A stretch of DNA of 15,764 nt from assembly GCA_902984215.1 (NCBI GenBank), contig CADWAF010004822.1, positions 1-15,764 of the forward strand. The letters are read 5' to 3'. A model generated the notes under the pieces. The model saw only the letters and a program-made list of their open reading frames with translations. It had not been told where the DNA came from and did not search any database. The translations under genes and the position numbers were made by a program. Each line of letters begins with the position of its first letter. Position 1 is the stretch's first letter. This DNA comes from Willaertia magna (Eukaryota; Heterolobosea; Eutetramitea; Acrasida; Naegleriidae). Positions 1-15,222 of the stretch are shown here, in pieces.

Positions 1-1410
1 TTCTATATTTGTATCTTGTAAAGTATATTCTAAGCTTACAGTTGTATCATTAGAAGAAGTATTTGGCCAACAATTTACAGTAAAAGGTAAAATAGTTTCA
101 TCAAAATTACCTTGTGAACGCCAAGTTAATATCTTTAAAGGATTACCAGTTGGGAATTCTTTATCTTTCCTCTTCAAAGCTAAACAATGTTCATCTGAGA
201 ATAATTTCTTATCTATATTTGGATGTAATTTAGTCACAAATCCATCTTTTGGATCTCCAATTAAACGTACTTTAATAAAACCATTTCCATTATCTGCTAT
301 TGTTAAATACATTTCTCCCTTAACATCTAAACTATTTAATCCACCGTCTCTGTTAGTTTCAACATTTAATGTTTCTTTAATTTCAACATCAATTTCTTCT
401 CTCTTCTTTTTCATTTCTGTTGCACTTACAATCTCTGGTAATTTACTTGTTGAAATATTATTATCAGTTATCTCTGGTAATTCTTGATTATTAATACCTC
501 CTTCTTGAACTAATTCATTTAGTAATCCTTGTTTCTTCTTTGGTCTATTTAAAATCATTGAACTTAAATTACTTGGTTTAGCTTGTTGTTTTACATTCTT
601 TTTATCTGAAGTACCAAAACCGACATTAGATGAAGATGTAGAAACAATAGATGGTGAAGTATTTCCTTGATTTCCAGCACCACTACTGTTAGAACCAATT
701 CCAACAAATTTACTTGATCCACCACTACTGATACTAGGTGAAGGATTATAAATATTATCTCCCATTCTTCCACCTTTACTTGAATCTCCACTTGAAATAC
801 CTGAAGTATATTTACCTTGATTTTTAGCCTTTTCTAAAGCAATTTCAGCTGCACGATTTCTTGCAACTAATTGAGCACTAGAAACTTTATTTTCATAAAT
901 AATATTTTGAAAGTTTTCTTCTTGTGAATCCATCCTTAAGATATCTTTAACTTGTTGAACATTAACAGATTCTTTATAACCTAATGAAACAATTTCATCA
1001 AAGGAAAATAATAATTCAAATGAATTTGAAGTAATTACTTCTTCAGTTATACCAAATGCACTATTACGTTGATTTGCAAAACAAATATCTTTAACCTATT
1101 TAATAATTAGTGTTAAATTATTATTTTAAATTTTAATACATACTGTACGGGATATTAATTGAAGAGTATCTAAATCTTCAACGATATTACTTGTTTTTGT
1201 AGTGATCAAAAGTAGTATTAATTGATCCATGGATTGATATACATAACGAACAGCTTCAGTTTCTACAAATGTATGTTGGGATTTTGGATCCATTAATTTA
1301 GGAAAAGCAGAGAGTAAACCTTCTAATCTAACACGTGAAATATCGCGAAAGGTTCTTGCCAACAAGGCTTTACCAGATTTTGAAACGATACTGACTGCAA
1401 TAATGACCAT
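1..1410 (-). CDS. Coatomer subunit delta (COPI coat), 3' end cut by window edge
   Basis: Delta-COP (archain) is the medium-chain-like subunit of the COPI coat, which acts in Golgi-to-ER and intra-Golgi vesicle transport. Exon 1 is 1144-1410 (89 codons) and exon 2 is 1095 down to 1 (365 codons, open to the edge), so 454 residues are visible. Residues 1 to about 145 are the longin-like domain. They match the family closely, with the conserved blocks AFPKL, QHTFVET, VRYVYQ, LITTK and SNIVEDL, then FDEIVSLGY and MDSQEE. A Ser/Gly/Asn-rich linker with a KKK patch follows. The C-terminal mu-homology domain starts near residue 320 (block NRDGG) and includes [21 protein letters not shown] and the final LEYTLQD. 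Compared with the usual length of about 510 residues, some 50-120 residues lie beyond the window. The start ATG is preceded by an A/T-only leader. The family assignment is secure; the linker is specific to this organism. Confidence 0.96.
1096..1143 (-). other. Intron 1 of the coatomer delta gene (48 nt)
   Basis: On the minus strand the donor is GTATGT (1143 downward) and the acceptor is AAATAG (ending at 1096). The intron is phase 0. Splicing joins ..ISRT to VKDICF.., restoring the family's continuous longin domain. A CACTAAT element inside resembles a branch site. Confidence 0.88.
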
Positions 1411-1639
1411 TTTTTTTTATAAAAAATTTATTTTATTAATTTTTGTCTAAATGAAATAAATTTGTCTCCTACTGGCCAAAATCCAGCTAGCAAGTGACGT
1501 ATCGGTCGCTATGAGTATTGGTCATATACATCTTATTACATGTTGTGTTATTTAAATAAAACGTATCTTGTTAATTTTTGTTGGCACTGGTACGTCTTTT
1601 TAATTGTTGTAACTTTTATTTATTAAGATTTATTAAAAA
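1411..1639. promoter_or_regulatory. Divergent intergenic promoter region
   Basis: These 229 bp separate two head-to-head start codons, so both promoters must lie here or in the first exons. A less AT-rich islet at about 1465-1535 contains GTGACGTATCGG, a CRE-like TGACGT core. A TATA-like palindrome TATTTAAATA sits at 1549-1558, some 80 bp upstream of the rightward ATG. Both start codons have A/T-only leaders. Sharing of elements is inference. Confidence 0.5.
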
Positions 1640-3745
1640 ATGTCTGTTCTTTTAGAATCACTCATCAAAGCGTTGGATGATATGAACGAACAATTAAAAA
1701 AAGAAAAATCGAATAAGAATTTTGATTGCAAACAATTTGCTAAAACATTATCATTTAAACTTGAAGACTACAAGGAAACAATCGATTCTTCATTGAAATT
1801 TTCCGAAAGCTCAGATAGAAATGAATATGCCAAATTATTTAAAGAAATTGTTGAGTTTGCCGACAACAAAGTAACTGATGCAAAAGATTTTGTTACAATT
1901 TATAATAAATTAGTAAAATTTAAAAAATTATTTACTAAATTAAATACCAACGAGAAAATAAAACATAAATTAGAGGAAACTAAAAGAAAACCTGAAGATT
2001 CAAAAAAGAGAAAAATCAATGACGTTAATACCTTACCAACATCATCTAATAATACAACTTTACAAGACAAAAAACTTAATAACACTTTATCAGTCATTAC
2101 ATCTAAGCCAATTGTAAATAATAATACTAACGATAAGAAAAAGGAAATTAATATTGTGACAAATAGCAGTTCTTCTCAATTAACACAACACCCTAATGAT
2201 TATGTAATGGAAGTATTTGAAAGACCAATTAGTAGTGTAAATATTAATTCTAATAATCAATTACCAAAATGTAATATTTGTAATCAAGTATCTTTAGCAC
2301 AAAATGATTTTTTAAAATGTTTAAATTGTTCTAATATTGTACATAAATCATGTATCAAAGATGACGAAAGTTGTATAGTTACCAAATTTAATACTTATTA
2401 TTGTAGAGAATGTTTTACTTTTGTAAGTTTTTTATTTTTATATTATTTGATTTATTCCCAAGTATAGAAAGCCGTTTGCAACAAGGGATATAATATTTAT
2501 GTTGTTGATAAAAATGGAAAAGAATATCCATTACAATTAAATCAAATTTCATCTGGAAAAATTGACTGTCCAATTTGTGACAGTAAAATATTATTAAACA
2601 ATTATTATTTACACATTCATAGATTAAATTATAATATTTTAGAAGGATTAGGAATATCAGCTGTTGTAAAAGATTTAGATATAGAAGATAACTATAATTA
2701 TGATACAATATTTATTATTCATTCACCAAATCAAATTTTAAAAGGAATAGATCAATGCTTAAAACAATTACCAAATGATCTTGCTTCATCAATTATATCA
2801 AACAATACATATTCTTTCCTTAATTGGAATTCAAATACTAGTGATAATAATCATAAAAGAAATAATAGTTTAGTATCTTATCCAGTAACAATAATTCGTG
2901 CATCTTCCCCACAAGATGCTAAATCTATTGGAATGTATTTAAGAAAACAAATTATTAATGATCAACATTTTAAGATTTATTTTTATGTTCCTTCCAGAAC
3001 TTTAGTATTAAATAATATACCTCAATCTTATGATAGGAATAATATTTTAAAAATTAAGGATAATTTTAAATTAACAGATAAAATTGAAACTATGGTTTTG
3101 GCACAAAATAAGAATACTGGAACTAAAATGGCATTAGTTACAATGAAAGATTGTAATGAGGCATTAAAAGTAAAGGAACAATTGGGAGATATTATTTTAA
3201 AACAAGGACATTTAAGAGTTTCATTCTATGTTGAAAAGAAATCAATATTAACTGAAGAAGAAGAAAAAAAAAACTATTTTACAACTATTGTAAAGATTGC
3301 TAATGTTCCAACACAGAAAAATACATATGAAATTAAAGATGCAATTGAAGAAAAGAAAGAAATGACAACCCTCAAAGAATTTTCATTTCGTGAAACGTTA
3401 ACAAAAGAAGAAAGTATTCAAACATTTGGGAAAAAAGAAGCTGCGTTTTTATTTCACTTTAAAGATGAAGATATTGCAAAACAATTTCAATTAAATTTCA
3501 ATGATATGGAGGTCTTTGGTAAACATTTAAGAATATCATTATTTTATAAACAGAAGAAAAGATTTGATGAAAATAATAAAGGTCAACGTTATTCCAATGG
3601 TCAAAGTAAGGACAATGTACATTATGGTGGAAGGCGTAGTAATAGTACTGGTGGTAATAACAACAATTTTTATTATGAAAGTAATAGTTCTGGTAGAAAC
3701 CATAATTCGAAATTAGATAGATACTATGCTAAAGAAGAATATTAA
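1640..3745 (+). CDS. PHD-finger protein with two C-terminal RRM-like domains
   Basis: The gene has two exons, 1640-2422 and 2468-3745, encoding 686 residues and ending in TAA. Residues 1-105 are charged and helical. A Lys/Arg patch at about 115-125 looks like a nuclear localisation signal, and a K/N/S low-complexity stretch runs to about 205. The PHD finger is complete in C4-H-C3 order: C211, C214, C227, C230, H235, C238, C255, C258. C295 and C298 with H310 and H312 form a possible small extra zinc site. RRM-like domain 1 (about 438-519) has the RNP2-like LVLNNIP but a poor RNP1. RRM-like domain 2 (about 533-627) begins TTIVKIANVP, and its RNP1 is also weak. A Gly/Asn/Ser/Arg-rich tail ends the protein. 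PHD fingers usually read histone H3 tails and RRMs bind RNA, so a chromatin/RNA role in the nucleus is inferred. I do not recognise an orthologue. The ATG follows an A-rich leader (AAAAAATG). Confidence 0.85.
2423..2467 (+). other. Intron of the PHD/RRM gene (45 nt)
   Basis: The donor is GTAAGT at 2423 and the acceptor is TATAG ending at 2467. The intron is phase 0. Read-through would add a short hydrophobic tail and stop right after the PHD finger (TAG at 2465-2467). Splicing keeps one frame open to 3745. The earlier AG at 2461-2462 would shift the frame. Confidence 0.88.
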
Positions 3746-3947
3746 ATCATTAATTAATACAATTGATAACTTACAAACGAACTATGTACTTTTAATTATT
3801 ACTCTTTTAGAAATAAGGATATCTTGTTGAATCTTTACAGTTTATTTTTTAAGTTTTCACTTGGAATGAGGACTTTTTATAGGTTAATTTTTAGAAATTT
3901 TCTTTTTATTGATAAATTCCATTTTGGAGATTGGTTACTTTTGAATG
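3746..3947. other. Intergenic spacer, 3' end of PHD/RRM gene and upstream of kinase gene
   Basis: These 202 bp of T-rich spacer contain no open frame of note and no clear AATAAA. They presumably carry the 3' UTR and poly(A) site of the upstream gene and the upstream promoter of the kinase gene. Confidence 0.5.
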
Positions 3948-6201: not shown

Positions 6202-7605
6202 ATGACAGTTCTTCCTCATGATTTTGGTGTTCCTGCCACAAGGAAAGTGAATTTAGAGAAATTAACTCCTAATCAAACAAGTAAAGAAGCAGTAAATACA
6301 ATGAAAGAAAATTTAAAAGAAGCATCAAAGATGAGAGATATAATGATTAGATCAATGACACAAAAAAGTCATTCCATAATTGTTGAAGTAAGTGTTGTTA
6401 GAATTTATTCCGATAATAATATAATTAGTCTATTGAAAAGTATTTACCTTATCTTACAGGAATAGTTTTTGCAATTGAAAATGATCAATTACGTAATGGT
6501 AAAGATAATAAAGATGGAATCTTTTTTGAATGGACAAGTGGATTATTAGGAGAAGAAAATAAAACATTTTCGCGATCTAAAAAGTATTTTTCATCTAAAA
6601 TAATAACATTTGAATTAATTATGGTTGTTTATTGTTATGGTTATAGTTTATGTAATTTAGCATCTGAAAAGATTAAACAAACAACTAATTTACATGATAA
6701 TAATTCAATAACTGAAATTTATCAAGATGCTGCAATTTGTTTAAGAAAAGCAGCAGGAGTATTTACTTATTTAAATCAAATTGGTTTATTATCCTATGTT
6801 AGTGGTAATGAAAATACTATTTCAAATAATGAACCATCTTCACCTAATATTCATTCACCAACTAATTCACCATCTTCTTCTAATCAACAACAAAATATTC
6901 CTTCTTTTGTAAATTTATCTAAATTGTCAATTCCTAAAAGTAATTTTGCATTATTACCTGAATTAGATTTATTATGTGCAAAATCATTATTAGAATATTC
7001 ACAAAGTATTGCTCAAGTAATTGCTGTTCATACAGCTATAGCTACTGGAAAAGGAGCAGGAATGATTTCTAAATTAAGTGTGTCAGTATTTAAATTATTT
7101 GATCAAACACAACAAACATTAATACAATTAGATGATAAATTAAAACAAAATAATAAGGAATCAATTTCTGCATTTGAAAGTATGAATAGTTTAATTGATC
7201 CAGAATATCGTTTAGTTTGTGCACAATATAGAATTCTTTATAGAGGAATAACATTATATTATTTAGCTTTAGATGCCAATCAAAATGAGTAAGTATTGAA
7301 TCTATTTCATATTAAAGATTTAACCATTATATAGTAAAAGTGGATTATCTGTTGGATATATAATAAATGCAAATAAACAATTAGAAGAAATGGATGTATT
7401 TGATGAAGTATCTAGACATAATCCATTTATGAATGAAACTAGACGTATTTTCACTGAATCAAAGAAATTAGAAACAATTTTTGAAAAAGAAAATAGATTA
7501 GTATTTAGAGAGAATGTGCCTGATTTGAAAGAATTAGAGATTCCTCAGGGTATAGTGGTATTGAAACCTGTTGAGTTCAAATTGACTACAGCTGTTAATC
7601 TTTAA
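6202..7605 (+). CDS. BRO1-domain protein (BROX-like, BRO1 domain only)
   Basis: Three exons, 6202-6387, 6441-7288 and 7335-7605, give 434 residues ending in TAA. The BRO1 domain fills almost the whole chain. The visible marks are YLPYL at 63-67, the FFEWTS block in the YEW position of BRO1 domains, a hydrophobic helix near residue 123, the AAICLRKAAGVF helix, a core around AKSLLEYSQSIAQVIAV, and IPQGIVVLKPVEF near the end. An Asn/Ser/Pro-rich insert lies at about 184-218, a usual loop position. BRO1 domains bind ESCRT-III (CHMP4/Snf7) tails, and BRO1-only proteins such as BROX (411 residues) work without the V domain of ALIX. Endosomal or nuclear-envelope ESCRT work is therefore likely. The C-terminus (TAVNL) lacks the CaaX box of animal BROX. 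The start is only 64 bp after the kinase stop and has an A-rich leader. Confidence 0.9.
6388..6440 (+). other. Intron 1 of the BRO1 gene (53 nt)
   Basis: The donor is GTAAGT at 6388, phase 0. The acceptor GAAAAG ends at 6440 and gives the in-frame join ..IIVE + YLPYLTGIVF.., which fits the BRO1 family. The better-looking CAG at 6459 puts a TAG stop in frame directly after the join, so it is not used for this product. Confidence 0.75.
7289..7334 (+). other. Intron 2 of the BRO1 gene (46 nt)
   Basis: The donor is GTAAGT at 7289, phase 2. The acceptor TATATAG ends at 7334 and gives ..NQNEDKSGLSVGY... An alternative AG at 7339-7340 is also in frame and would remove two residues (KS); the first AG is preferred. 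Confidence 0.75.
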
Positions 7606-8574
7606 TGTTTTTTTGTAATGTATTAAATAACTTTGTAATTGGCATACTTCGAATTGGATACTTTTTAGAACATTCTATTTCACACAACCCTTTTAAAGAA
7701 GATGTCTTCTTTTGTTATAATTCCGCTTTTGCCCACTGGTCAACCTTGTTATTGAGTGTATTATTGTAGGCTTGTACCTTGATTATTTTCAAAATGTTAT
7801 TTTCTTTAATGGTTTTGTTTAGTTTTTTCTTAAAACATAGAAAGTTGCCTTTATTTTACTGTCTTAAAATAATTTTTTAAAATTAAGATAATTATTAAAA
7901 TTGTTAATTTTTATATTTTTAATAATATTTTTTTCATTATTTATTTTTTGTTTAGTTATATTATTTTTATTAAAATTATTTAAAGTTATTTTTTTAATAT
8001 TTAATTTATTATTTAATACTATATAACTTTTATTATATTCTTTAAAATAATCATTATCATTATCACATTTATCTTTAATATAATTACTATCATTAATATA
8101 ATAATAATTAATATTTTTTTAATGTTATATTTTTTATACTTTATTTTTTAACCTCAATAATATTGTGTTTATTTTTTATTTTTTTAAATATTAGTAATTG
8201 ACTTATTTTTAATATTATTTTTGTAAAAATTGATTTAATAAATAATAATTTTTAATAATCTTTTAAATATTAATTCAATTTATTATTATAAATATTATTA
8301 AAGTAAATATTATTTATTTGATAATGACTTTAAAATTAAAGTTTGTTTTAATTTAAAAAATTTAAAAATAACTAATTGTATAAAGTTGTTTATATATTTA
8401 TTGAAAGTATTTTTTAATGTAAGTAGTTATTTAAATTGAATTTATTTATTTTATTTTTTAAATTTTTTATATTACATTTAATTGTTAATCATTTTGAATA
8501 AATTTATAAAAATATACAATAAAACAATTAAAAAATACACTATTTTATTTATAATAAATAATTATAAAAGTATA
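7606..8574. other. Gene-free spacer, grading from 3' flank into extreme A/T DNA
   Basis: About 970 bp. The first 250 bp or so (to about 7860) have mixed composition like the gene flanks here and probably hold the BRO1 3' UTR. A short AGAAGA-TG-TCTTCT hairpin lies near 7697-7710. Beyond that the DNA is nearly only A and T, with T-runs and short ATTAT/TAAT words. I see no coding frame, tRNA or clear repeat. Confidence 0.6.
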
Positions 8575-8592
8575 GGGTTTGGGTTTGGGTTT
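8575..8592 (+). repeat. Interstitial telomere-like tract, (GGGTTT)3
   Basis: Three perfect GGGTTT units stand in DNA that otherwise has almost no G-runs. The tract lies 36 bp left of the first ATGAGCTCAT palindrome, at the left border of the satellite region. Six-base T/G repeats of this form resemble telomeric DNA, but the telomere repeat of this organism is unknown. Confidence 0.6.
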
Positions 8593-8910
8593 TAACTATA
8601 TATAGTATATTTCTATATATAGTAAGTATGAGCTCATGTTATCTATATTAGGATAGTCTATATCTACCCTAATACCTCTGTATTTTATTACTTTTATAAA
8701 ATATTTATAAATGACTCTAATATAATATAGTAACATACTTATGTATATTTTAATTATATTTAATAAATAGTCACATACCTTAGTCAATTCATTCTATAAT
8801 ATTCTATAATGTAAACAACATGATTATAATTAAAATTTTAAATAAAAGTTAATAATTTAATGTTTTAATATTTAATATATATTTTATAACAATTACTAAA
8901 TAAGGATTAT

Positions 8911-8950
8911 TACTAAATAAAGTATATATGAGCTCATGTTAACCTTATTT
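8911..8950. repeat. Single-type palindromic element (clearest example)
   Basis: CTAAATAAAG at the left and CTTATTTAG at the right are inverted around the central ATGAGCTCAT, making an imperfect foldback of about 40 bp. The same layout (TAAATAAAGTA .. palindrome .. TACTTATTTAG) occurs around 9240, 9562 and 9874. It is half the size of the paired elements further right. Confidence 0.7.
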
Positions 8951-10270
8951 AGACTATAGCTATCAATAGTATATTATTTATTTTATTAAATATTAATAAA
9001 TATTAAAATTATAATATATTTATTAATTTTTAATTGTTTATGATCTAATAAAAAGTGATATACCTTAGTGATTTTATATATTATAAATTTAATGAAAACA
9101 ATAAAATTTAATATTATTTACTTTTAAAATTTATAGTTTTATTATAAATTTAAATTTATTTTAATAATTTATTAATTTAAAATAATATATATATATTATA
9201 TAAATATCAAATATAGTTAATTATTAAATAAAGTAATATATAAGCTCATGTTGTACTTATTTAGTAAGTAAATAATAATAGTATATAATTTATTTGTATA
9301 AATATTAATAAATGATAAAACTATAATATATTTATTAATTTTTAATTATAGTTTATACAATAAAAATTAATAAAAATTATATACCTTAGTGAATATATTA
9401 ATTGTAAATTTATTAAAAATAATAAAATTTAATATTTTTCATATATAAAATTTAATAGTTTTATAATAAATTTAAATTAATTTTAATAATTTATTAATTT
9501 AAAATAATATATATAATTTATAATAATATTAAATATAATTAATAACCAAATAAAGTAATATATGAGCTCATGTTGTACTTATTTAGTATATGGACAACAA
9601 TAGTATATATTTTATTTTTATTAATGTTAATAAATAATAAAATTATAATATATTTACTAATTTTTAATCATTTAAAAACAAATAAAAAATAATATACCTT
9701 AGTAAATATATACATTATAAATTTATTAAAAATACTGAAATTAAATATTATTTTTAAATGAAATTAATAGTTTTATTTATATTTTAACTTTATTTTAATA
9801 ATTTATTATTTAAATTTTCTATATATATTTCATAATATTATTAAATATAATTAATTACCAAATAAAGTAATATATGAGCTCATGTTATACTTATTTAGTA
9901 AATGGATAATAATAATATTTAATTTATTTAATAAAATATTAATAAATAATAAAACTATAATATATTTATTAATTTTTAAATATTTTTAATTTAATATAAA
10001 ATTATAATAGTTTTATAATAAATTTAATTTAATTTTAATAATTTATTAATTAAAAATAATATGTATAATTTATAATATTATTAAATATAATTAATAATTA
10101 ATATTTAAGTATTTAATTTATTTATTAAAATATTAATAAATAATAAAACTATAATATATTTATTAAATTTTAATAATTTTTTACTTAATAAAAAATATAT
10201 ACTTTAGTGAATATAATATTAAAAATTTATTAAATATTTATTAAATTCACTATTATATATTATATATTTG

Positions 10271-10352
10271 TTAAATAATATTAATTTTATTATAAATTTA
10301 TTAAATAATATTAATTTTATTATAAATTTATTAAATAATATTAATTTTATTA
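10271..10352 (+). repeat. 30-bp tandem repeat, about 2.7 copies
   Basis: A unit starting TTAAATAATATTAATTTTAT begins at 10271, 10301 and 10331. The first two copies are identical over 30 bp and the third diverges at its end. This looks like a recent local duplication inside the older satellite. Confidence 0.85.
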
Positions 10353-10500
10353 TTTATTTTATATATAATTAATAATTTTATTATAAAATTAAATTTATTT
10401 TAATAATTTAACTTTATTATTATTTATTTATTCAATTAATTAATAATTTTTAATCATTTAATATTTAATAATTATTTATATACCTTAGTGTGTATATTTA

Positions 10501-10837: not shown

Positions 10838-11513
10838 CTAAATATAGTAATATATGAGCTCATGTTTACTAAATTAAGTAAGTATGAGCTCATAGTTACT
10901 ATATTTAGTTTTTATATTAAAAAATAACTTAATTTTATTATTTTGTATTATATTTAAAAAATTTATTTAAAGTATTAATTATTATTAATCTAAATAAAGC
11001 AAGTATGAGCTCATATTTACTAAATTAAGTAAGTATGAGCTCATAGTTACTATATTTAATATTTACATAATTAAATTTTAAAAAATTAATAAACTGTAAT
11101 TAAAATAATAAAATAAAATTATTTTGTTACTTAAAAACTAAATATAGTAACTATGAGCTCATGTTTACTAAATTAAGTAAGTATGAGTTCATGTTATCTA
11201 TATTTGGTTTTTGTATAATTTTATTTTAATAATTTATTACATTACAATATAGTTAATAATTTTTTTTAAATTAATAATTACTGTAAGTCCAAATATAGTA
11301 GGTATGAGCTCATGTTAACTAATTATGGTCACCATGAGCTCATAGTTGCCATATTAGGTCTTTATATAGTAAAATATTTAAAAACAAAGAAAATACTAAA
11401 TTTTTAATATTTTAATAACTATATGATTACCGAAAGACCAAATATAGAAGGTATGAGCTCATAGTGACCAAATTAGGCAAGTATGAGCTCATGTATTACT
11501 ATATTTGATCTTT
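10838..11513. repeat. Array of five paired foldback elements at about 150-bp steps
   Basis: Each element has two ATGAGCTCAT sites with starts 30 bp apart: 10854/10884, 11005/11035, 11153/11183 (second site has one change), 11304/11334 and 11453/11483. The left sites step by 151, 148, 151 and 149 bp. Outer arms are inverted: the first element has CTAAATATAGTAA at 10838-10850 and its exact reverse complement at 10896-10908. The fifth spans 11433-11513 with 15-bp arms and one mismatch. The spacers of about 80 bp between elements are A/T-rich and do not align obviously with one another. No coding frame crosses the array. Confidence 0.9.
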
Positions 11514-12240
11514 AGATAATTATATATTAATAAACAATATTTTAAAGTATAACTTTTTATTTTTATTATCAATTTTATAGTACTAAAATTTAAAAAAAAA
11601 ATACAAAGTTTTTTTATAATTTTTAAGAGTTAATTAATATATATTATTTAATTAAATTTTTAAAATAAAAATATAATAAAAATTAATTTAATAATATTAT
11701 ACTTTAAAATTATATTATATAAAATAATTTTAAATTTTTATATTATTTTTTAAAAAAAGTTATAAATTTTTATATTTAAATTAATATATTAAATTATAAT
11801 AATTATTAATAATAAAAATAAAATAAAAATATTTTTAATATTATTTAATTATAAATTTATAAAATATTATATTTTTATAATAAATTTATTAAAAGTTTAT
11901 TAAATATTATATTTTAATTAATATTTATTATTATTATAATTTTTAAAAATAAAAATATAATAAAAATATTTTTAATAATTTATAAAATTTCATTATTTTT
12001 TATTTTTATAATAATTTATTATAAATTTATAGTTTTTGATAATTAAATTAATATATTATATTATTTTAAATATTTAAAATATAAATATAATAAAAATTAT
12101 TTTATTAATATTTTATAATAAATTTATTTAATATGAAATAATTTTTAATTTTTATTATAAATATTTTAAATAAATTTTTTAATTACATATATTCTATTTA
12201 ATATTGTAATTTATTTTAATAATATATTATTATACTTAAA
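11285..12240. repeat. Long duplication, copy 1
   Basis: This segment, starting at the fourth foldback element, recurs 1222 bp to the right. Landmarks are the palindromes at 11304, 11334, 11453 and 11483, a TACAAAGTTTTTTT word near 11611, and AATATGAAATAATT near 12130. From the last palindrome to the end it is A/T-rich with no gene or motif that I recognise. Confidence 0.7.
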
Positions 12241-12506
12241 ATGTTATTATATAAATAAATAAAATTATTGGTTTTTTTTATAAAATATTTTATATTAATT
12301 TTTTATTTGTTTATAATAATATAATTAATAATAATAAAAATATATTAAAAATTAATTTATAATTAATAAAAATTATTAATTTATTATTTATATAGCAATT
12401 ATGAATTTATATTTATAAAATTATGTAAATATAAATTTATAGTTTTTATATGTAATTTTTATGTAATAAAATTATAACAATTTATTAAATTAAAATATAT
12501 TTAAAT
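12241..12506. other. A/T-rich tail of duplication unit
   Basis: About 270 bp of nearly pure A/T between the end of clear homology in copy 1 and the start of copy 2. I see no gene or motif. Confidence 0.4.
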
Positions 12507-13310
12507 AAGTCTAAATATAATAACTATGAGCTCATGTTAACTAAATATGGTCAACATGAGCTTATAGTTACTATATTAGGTTTTTGTATAGTAATATATT
12601 AAAAAATAAAGAAAATATTATATTTTTAATATTTTAATAATTACATAATTACCAAAAGACCAAATATAGAAGGTATGAGCTCATGTTGACTAAATTAAGT
12701 AAGTATGAGCTCATGTATTACTATATTTGGTCTTTAGATAATAATATATTAATAAATAATATTATTAAAATATAGTTTGTTATTTTTTATTATTTTATAT
12801 ATAAATATTTTAAAAAAAAATACAAAGTTGTTTTATAATTTTTAAGAAGTAATAAATATATATTATTAAATTAAAAATTTAAAATACAAATATAATAAAA
12901 ATTAATTTAATATTACTTAATTATGAAATTACATAATTTTAAATAATTTTATATTTTATATTAATTTTTTTAAAAATTTTATATATTTTCATATTTATAT
13001 TAATATATTAAATTGTAATAATTATTAAAAATAAAAATATAATAAAAATATTTTTAATAATATTATATTTTAAAATTATATTATATTAAATAATATTATA
13101 ATTTTATAATAATTTATAGTTTTTTTATAATTAATTTAATATATTTTATTATTAACAATATTAAAAATATAAATATAATAAAAATTTTTTTATTAATATT
13201 TTATACTAAATTTATATAATATGAAATAATTCTTAATTTTTATTATAAATAATATTTTAATGTTTTTTTAATTATATTTTTATGTTTAATAATATAATTT
13301 ATTTAATAAA
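12507..13310. repeat. Long duplication, copy 2, with two paired foldback elements
   Basis: Palindromes at 12526, 12556 (one change), 12675 and 12705 correspond one-to-one to copy 1 at a constant offset of 1222 bp. After about 12850 the offset shortens to about 1090 at AATATGAAATAATT, so one copy has lost or gained roughly 130 bp. Many point differences show the duplication is not recent. Confidence 0.7.
12655..12735. repeat. Best-preserved 81-bp foldback element
   Basis: The 15-bp arms AAAGACCAAATATAG (12655-12669) and CTATATTTGGTCTTT (12721-12735) are perfect inverted repeats. They enclose ATGAGCTCAT at 12675 and 12705, around a centre with inverted TACTTA/TTAGTT-like words. As a single strand it could fold into one long imperfect hairpin, or into two small ones at the inner palindromes. 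Confidence 0.85.
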
Positions 13311-14339: not shown

Positions 14340-14410
14340 TATTATTAGTTATTGTTAAAAGGTAGTTAGTATTAGTTTATAGTTATTGTTGTGTTGTTGT
14401 TGTTATGAAG

Positions 14411-14564
14411 TTAATGGATAGTTGTGTAATTGTTAATGGGTAGTTATGTAATTGTTAATGAATAGTTGTGTAATTGTTAATGGGTAGTTGTGTAATTGTT
14501 AATGAATAGTTGTATAATTGTTAATGAGTAGTTGTGTAATTATTAATGGGTAGTTGTGTAATTG
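14411..14564 (+). repeat. 22-bp minisatellite, seven copies in register
   Basis: The unit is TTAATGGRTAGTTGTGTAATTG with variation mainly at the R and neighbouring base. Seven copies run without length change; looser variants with inserted GTTG/GATGATG continue to about 14750. Confidence 0.9.
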
Positions 14565-14753
14565 TTGTTAATGGATAATTATTGATGATGAATGTTATGT
14601 AATTGTTATTGTTAATGAGTAGTTATGTAATTGTTGTTAATAGGTAATTATATATTGTTGTTAATGAGTAATTGTGTAATTATTGTAAATGGATAGTTGT
14701 GTAGTTGTTAATGATGAATATTGTGTAATTGTTGTTAATGAGTAGTTATGTAG

Positions 14754-14851
14754 TTAATGGATAGTTGTGTAGTTAATGTGTAGTTGTGTAGTTAATGAGT
14801 AGTTATGTAGTTAATGAATAGTTGTGTAGTTAATGTGTAGTTGTGTAATTG
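14754..14851 (+). repeat. 19-bp variant minisatellite, four copies plus one 22-bp copy
   Basis: The unit TTAATGNRTAGTTGTGTAG is the 22-bp unit with its ATTG end reduced to G, so the two arrays share an origin. The last copy returns to the 22-bp form. Confidence 0.85.
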
Positions 14852-14967
14852 TTGATGATTGTTGTTTAATTGTTGTTAATGTTGTTAATGATTAGTTAAT
14901 AAATTTAAATTATTAAATTACTTACTACTAATAATGTTATTGTGTAATTATTGTTATGTTGTTGTTG

Positions 14968-15007
14968 TTTTGTTGTTTTGTTGTTTTGTTGTTTTGTTGT
15001 TTTGTTG
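14968..15007 (+). repeat. 8-bp repeat, (TTTTGTTG)5
   Basis: Five exact 8-bp units. They are followed by mixed TTGTTG/TGTGTAATTG variants up to the 11-bp array. Confidence 0.9.
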
Positions 15008-15128
15008 TTGTATAATTGTTATTGTGTAGTTGTTGTATTGTTGTTATGTTGTTTTGTTGTTGTGTAATTGTTATTGTGTAATTGTTGTTGTGTAATTGTT
15101 GTTGTGTAATTGTTATTGTGTAGTTGTT

Positions 15129-15186
15129 GTGTTGTTGTTGTGTTGTTGTTGTGTTGTTGTTGTGTTGTTGTTGTGTTGTTGTTGTG
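15129..15186 (+). repeat. 11-bp repeat, (GTGTTGTTGTT)5
   Basis: GTG occurs at 15129, 15140, 15151, 15162, 15173 and 15184, exactly 11 bp apart, with TTG triplets between. On the other strand this is CAA/AAC-rich. Confidence 0.9.
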
Positions 15187-15222
15187 TAGTTGTTGTATTG
15201 TTGATTAGGTTGAGATTTTTTT

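Follow-up and report, generated by a model that had tools for sequence, protein, structure and literature searches.

Genes and features of the window

The window analysed here is the whole of contig C815 of Willaertia magna (15,764 bases), from a genome assembly of 894 contigs and 19.24 Mb. Its left half is filled with genes, the last of which ends near 7605, and domains of an adaptor-complex medium subunit, a PHD finger (22.1 bits against a cut-off of 24), a kinase and a BRO1-like protein were recognized in the window. We read the gene with the medium-subunit domain as delta-COP, and the kinase gene is 100% identical to a Willaertia magna protein, with 98% of the query covered. Beyond the genes lies an A/T-rich block that starts sharply at a telomere-like tract and extends to the contig end; C815 itself shows no telomere. 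From position 8001 on, G+C content is 3-9% in ten of sixteen 500-base windows and 13-23% in the other six. No ORF longer than 63 amino acids is found between 7900 and 15764 (the longest has 63), and no RNA family reaches its gathering score anywhere in the window. We use "box" for the 10-letter palindrome ATGAGCTCAT. The last gene and the features of the block outside the paired array are as follows.

6621..7605, + strand: BRO1-like gene in two exons, the last before the block (Pfam BRO1 at 27.0 bits, below the cut-off of 35.1; end placed by eye)
8575..8592, + strand: telomere-like tract GGGTTTGGGTTTGGGTTT, the sharp left edge of the block (pattern search; same edge in other contigs)
8593..8650, + strand: conserved block start, ATATATAGTATATTTCTATATATAG and the first box (75-bp query; six-copy alignment)
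8628..9883, + strand: five single boxes, starting at 8628, 8928, 9240 (one mismatch), 9562 and 9874
8776..10489, + strand: five TACCTTAGT motifs, starting at 8776, 9061, 9382, 9695 and 10481
14410..15203, + strand: T/G-rich minisatellite tract in the right part of the otherwise A/T-rich DNA, with relatives in contigs C767 and C521

The single boxes follow one another at 300, 312, 322 and 312 bp, and 22 such intervals, listed by hand from C815, C767, C604, C814 and C358, have a mean of 310 bp (s.d. 6.6). The TACCTTAGT motif occurs five times in the window against an expectation of 0.12. Its first four copies sit between single boxes, and it comes 133-148 bp after four of the five boxes.

An observation on the gene side concerns contig C814, part of which (L003 4129-4383) is identical to window positions 1-232, inside the delta-COP-like gene. 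After that stretch C814 carries the 24-mer AAAGTTGCCTTTATTTTACTGTCT, the window counterpart of which lies at 7841-7864, and the 21-base core of this 24-mer is found at those two places only, with one mismatch allowed. C814 may be a version of the window's end lacking 7.6 kb, or an assembly join.

A paired-palindrome array

A preliminary description of this DNA had reported five elements, each with two copies of ATGAGCTCAT 30 bp apart, at steps of 151, 148, 151 and 149 bp. This layout was confirmed, with box starts at 10854/10884, 11005/11035, 11153/11183, 11304/11334 and 11453/11483. The distance within pairs is always 30 bp, and the box at 11183 (ATGAGTTCAT) is the sole mismatched one among these ten. 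The array is real and bigger than first described, as the same block holds two extra pairs, at 12526/12556 and 12675/12705, in addition to the five single boxes at 8628-9874. Pattern search, shuffles and folding support each of the seven elements.

10838..10910, no strand: paired-box element 1, an imperfect palindrome of ~71 bp
10989..11061, no strand: paired-box element 2
11137..11209, no strand: paired-box element 3, second box ATGAGTTCAT
11288..11360, no strand: paired-box element 4
11437..11509, no strand: paired-box element 5
12510..12582, no strand: paired-box element 6, second box ATGAGCTTAT
12659..12731, no strand: paired-box element 7

A pair pattern allowing C/T at three places finds these seven sites in the window, against 0 of 200 dinucleotide shuffles, and single boxes at two or fewer mismatches number 22 where 4.26 are expected. 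The consensus paired element is palindromic throughout (33 of 40 pairs, reached by 0 of 300 shuffles), and all seven window elements fold as one hairpin, well beyond their shuffles (z from -4.8 to -10.8). Sliding one arm by 1-3 columns lowers the paired cells from 90.3% to 31-41%. Since pairing collapses on sliding and folding exceeds that of shuffles, we conclude that the palindrome is real.

We rejected a hairpin or cruciform as the conserved unit: across 13 elements the arms do not covary, with 90.3% of cells paired against 90.1% after shuffling, a value reached by 201 of 500 shuffles. Additionally, the seven window elements match their own arms no better than swapped ones, 948 of 5040 permutations reaching the observed match. 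Both tests have low power because 12 of the 31 pairs never vary, and the lack of covariation weakly favours double-stranded DNA, rather than a maintained hairpin, as the form that is recognized.

The spacers between elements had been described as lacking obvious similarity, and their alignment as a uniform satellite had been named as evidence against a special array. Five window spacers were compared in all ten combinations, each against 300 shuffles, and in seven combinations at least 18 shuffles reach the score. All three combinations of neighbouring spacers in the reported array are unremarkable (241, 33 and 18 of 300 shuffles). The score of the first and third spacers is reached by 11 of 300 shuffles and that of the third and last by 1, and the spacers at 11363-11436 and 12585-12658 are 86% identical (0 of 300). 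Between copies of the block, four corresponding spacers of the window and C767 are 89-100% identical, and the divergence of spacers (14 differences in 291 positions) equals that of boxes (6 in 120). The earlier statement holds for neighbouring units, which are little alike, but fails for different copies, the spacers of which align well; uniform, satellite-like alignment is seen between copies and is missing between neighbours.

Copies of the block in the genome

The genome holds 52 exact copies of ATGAGCTCAT and none of a reversed control pattern. Among the 50 of these sites that were listed, 41 fall in five contigs (16 in C815, 13 in C767, 6 in C814, 5 in C604 and 1 in C358), and the other nine are each alone on their contig. 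Exact 30-bp pairs among the 50 listed sites are confined to C815 (five) and C767 (two). With up to one mismatch per box, C815 has seven pairs and C767 six, and the nine other contigs or contig parts scanned have none. This distribution gives no support to one array per chromosome. In both the window and C767 the pairs step by 148-151 bp, and in each a single gap of ~1.1 kb separates two groups of pairs.

The start of the block was found at eight or more places in the genome, in C815, C604, C767, C814, C140, C358, C864 and C521. The searches used a 401-bp and a 75-bp query, the latter finding seven places, and their counts are lower bounds. Four contigs (C815, C767, C604 and C814) show the exact three-repeat edge GGGTTTGGGTTTGGGTTT; C140 shows two repeats, and the edges in C358, C521 and C864 have decayed. 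Across the first bases of the block (8593..8650), six aligned copies have mean pairwise identities of 0.86-0.97.

In an all-against-all BLAST comparison with longer words, one alignment only, that of C767 with C814, continues beyond the edge, for ~350 bp. The 350-bp left flanks of seven copies were therefore compared, giving pairwise scores of 51-112 against 255 for the block starts of C767 and C814. In 18 of the 21 flank pairs, four or more of 60 shuffles reach the score (five for C767/C814). The pairs standing out are C604/C140, C814/C521 and C815/C358, with 0, 1 and 2 of 60 shuffles. By these scores, the left flanks of the copies share at most weak likeness.

Probable links to telomeres

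The GGGTTT unit of the block edge looks like the telomere repeat. Contig C781 starts with ~14 AAACCC units and is the only contig with a long GGGTTT run. An element of ~560 bp, F1, adjoins these terminal repeats and is preceded by a GGGTTGGGTTTGGGTTTGG tract, and copies of F1 in C319 and C181 are 100% identical to that of C781 over 257 bp. Contigs C181 and C151 stop just inside the same GTTCC-TTGGGTTT junction, after F1 and a related element, F2. These small elements are seemingly chromosome-end caps.

Three F1/F2 elements (L024 1-650, L041 970-1554 and L040 1130-1785) measure ~560-640 bp and have GGGTTT on both sides. Motifs resembling CCTATATTCGAACC and ATAGTAAC are common, by eye, to several related end families. 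In C378 (L050 7328-8716) an ORF, which we read as a candidate recombinase, extends into a start resembling F1 where the contig ends.

The best link between the block and a chromosome end is a stretch of C521. This contig has a decayed block copy at 7941. Its first 20 bases, ~7.9 kb away, hold GGGTTTGGGTTTGGGGGAAA in the same orientation, and this sequence agrees with the opening of F1 for ~8 letters past the tract; the F1 matches do not include C521. Its positions 21-876 and 1069-3786 are colinear with C781 2989-3833 and 3945-6642, at 89 and 92% identity. However, 2.0 kb of C521 (3830-5828) have a relative in C358 on the gene side of the block, and 344 bp of its C781-like part recur in C814, again on the gene side; these parts are therefore dispersed. 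The subtelomeric reading is weakened because the F1-like start of C521 amounts to ~8 letters and because parts of the contig are dispersed.

By eye, the far ends of the block copies differ. The C140 copy ends after ~1.85 kb at a new GGTTTGGGTTTGGGG tract, with ~12 letters in common with F2, and beyond it lies DNA of ~34% G+C with open stretches of up to 99 amino acids. The C358 copy breaks off after ~1.24 kb with no tract at that point, and 2.9 kb further on there is a decayed tract that has an F4-like end. In C767 the block runs for ~7.8 kb and then gives way to F3-type sequence without a tract. Contig C7 holds an inner fragment corresponding to window positions 12015-12507 at 95% identity (by eye on to ~12546), one end of which is a GGGTTTGGGTTTGG tract with another F-type end and the opposite end of which has no tract.

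An F3 element lies within C210, 18.6 kb from the contig end and beside a 352-amino-acid ORF that we read as a candidate oxidoreductase. Together with the C521 relatives in C358 and C814 and the 34% G+C DNA behind the C140 block, this indicates that tracts can be internal, so that a terminal position of the window copy is not proven.

In the 20 contigs examined, 21 of 21 GGGTTT tracts point to the nearer contig end. C767 is a counterexample, with ~9980 bases to the end its tract points to and ~5700 to the opposite end. The tract search gave 50 matches, 12 of them in the terminal run of C781, and 46 of the 50 were read. We did not accept contig-end position as proof of a telomere, as contigs that break on entering a repeat give the same pattern.

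Conservation of the boxes

In the single-box part of the block, six copies are 78-87% identical in pairs. We counted cells over the first 1560 bases or less of these copies, scoring each copy against the majority letter of the rest; the alignment leaves out the decayed C521 and C864 copies and the C7 fragment. For A/T letters, 173 of 174 core cells agree with the majority, compared with 6311 of 7066 cells outside the cores (Fisher p 1.2e-7); for G/C letters the figures are 94 of 113 and 316 of 434 (p 0.028). We also shifted the five core windows jointly, and offset 0 took rank 11 of 285. The 18 offsets between -14 and +3 are all within the best 25 of 285, and six of the remaining seven are at +78 to +86. 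Offsets near +80 thus score much as the boxes do, and the boxes are not unique in their conservation.

In the paired array, the window and C767 differ at 6 of 120 core, 23 of 308 arm and 14 of 291 spacer positions, and the six core changes are all C/T or G/A. Perfect cores number 20 of 26. Pooling C815 and C767, G/C letters are kept in 61 of 65 core positions and 144 of 227 outside. This comparison favours constraint but is biased by the choice of boxes in the window, and our conclusions rest instead on the six-copy comparison and on the differences between the window and C767. An alignment of 28 of 29 units (one lacked its right side) was picked by the box and is biased upward for box conservation, and we draw no conclusion from it; its flank filter skipped one C814 box and at least two C140 boxes. 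At one mismatch or less, C140 and the examined part of C864 have no boxes and C521 has a single one. The picture is mixed: the six copies argue for clear long-term conservation of the boxes, and the paired arrays of the window and C767 give no sign of present constraint.

Discussion

We propose, with a probability of roughly 0.55, that the palindrome pairs belong to a recurring, non-coding, A/T-rich block that starts at a GGGTTT tract and is likely subtelomeric, in which the boxes would offer a dimeric chromatin protein docking sites at even intervals. The window copy is likely near a chromosome end, and recombination or joining events at telomere tracts presumably spread the copies. A host protein may bind the boxes; this predicted protein would bind dimers of boxes every ~150 bp where they are paired or every ~310 bp where they are single, phase nucleosomes, and mark chromosome ends for silencing or protection. 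The box layout bears out the earlier view of a conserved core in A/T DNA with near-nucleosome spacing, compatible with dimer binding sites.

It is possible, at somewhat below even odds, that the block is instead a neutral old satellite, a decaying tandem repeat in which boxes mark where G/C survives in younger copies, aided by conversion between units. Such a history would suit the differences between the window and C767 in cores, arms and spacers, the C/T or G/A nature of all six core changes, and the disappearance of boxes from C140 and the examined part of C864, with one left in C521. It sits poorly with neighbouring spacers that hardly align though 20 of 26 cores are perfect, and with core A/T letters kept better than those outside in six copies. 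We consider it doubtful that the block is a mobile element with a telomere-like tail, fixed at its tract end and variable at the other in the manner of telomere-attached retroelements. At least eight starts behind differing flanks, differing far ends, the tract shared by F-type ends, and ORFs in C7 and C235 that point to the tract speak for such an element. Nevertheless, the block has no ORF above 63 amino acids, and Pfam gave nothing below E 0.08 for seven ORFs from C378, C235, C7 and C521. Additionally, for the 76 reverse-transcriptase matches in the genome, C111 and C660 are the only contigs that combine a match with a GGTTTGGGTTTGG site; the matches there lie on the tract's gene side or overlap the tract (C111).

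Centromere function, raised in the preliminary description, is not supported and appears quite improbable. Palindromic boxes at near-nucleosome steps, a G+C content of 3-9% in 10 of the 16 intervals from 8001 and the small number of loci would agree with centromeric DNA, but the block starts on telomere-like tracts and has a less firm link to elements that abut telomeres, and a CENP-B-type box is not above chance (two loose matches in the window against 2.12 expected, none in the block). An iteron-like array or a replication origin is an even poorer prospect: the A/T-rich DNA and the spacing of its palindromes would fit one, but the block has no ORF able to code for an initiator.

Several known systems share parts of this layout. 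Alphoid satellite DNA likewise has a protein box at nucleosome-scale steps in A/T DNA; the Willaertia motif is unrelated to that of CENP-B, and the block edge is telomere-like. Yeast Y' elements are subtelomeric and bordered by short telomere-repeat tracts, as the block seems to be, but they code for a helicase; the longest ORF of the block has 63 amino acids. Telomere-attached retroelements, among them MoTeR of Magnaporthe and Athena of rotifers, have a telomere-like tract at one end, and of their two ends one is fixed and the other variable. No reverse transcriptase was found in the block, as none of the 76 genome matches is on C815 and no long ORF is present. The tract of MoTeR (PMC7367193) is in this respect like that of the block.

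Among the systems compared, the SPE2/PfSIP2 array at Plasmodium chromosome ends resembles the block most and is the nearest functional parallel found. Plasmodium falciparum has 777 predicted SPE2 sites, 94% of them in subtelomeric landmarks, and in TARE2/3 SPE2 averages 18 per chromosome end, most spaced by 120 bp (PMC2829057). Both systems would consist of non-coding chromosome-end repeats with a protein site at regular steps, bipartite in SPE2 (PMC2829057). The Willaertia motif differs, its boxes are palindromic and paired at 30 bp, and its binding protein is a predicted one. GTGCA, the first half of the SPE2 motif, occurs 10 times in the window, with none between 7225 and 15764.

A further-reaching idea, which we regard as unlikely, is that the chromosome ends of Heterolobosea bear a repeat block seeded by telomere sequence, whose palindromic dimer site (30-bp pairs, ~150/310 bp steps) sets nucleosome phasing and labels the end. 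This would be a second SPE2-like code for subtelomeric chromatin, evolved independently outside Apicomplexa. In the abstracts consulted on Willaertia, Naegleria and Heterolobosea genomes we met no description of a telomere repeat or subtelomere of Heterolobosea, and a text search of the W. magna genome paper gave no hit for telomere, centromere or satellite (PMC11702301). If the subtelomeric reading is true, GGGTTT tracts, F-type elements and box arrays would be chromosome-end markers for this group, and the 71-bp element would be bait for a chromosome-end binding protein in a lineage far from yeast, animals and Plasmodium.

A separate observation concerns contig C235 (L045 2335-2814), which encodes a variant of histone H3 (Pfam Histone, E 7.4e-30) whose tail and loop are divergent. 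Its best match among solved structures is an H3.1/CENP-A chimera, and it is a possible centromeric H3 candidate.
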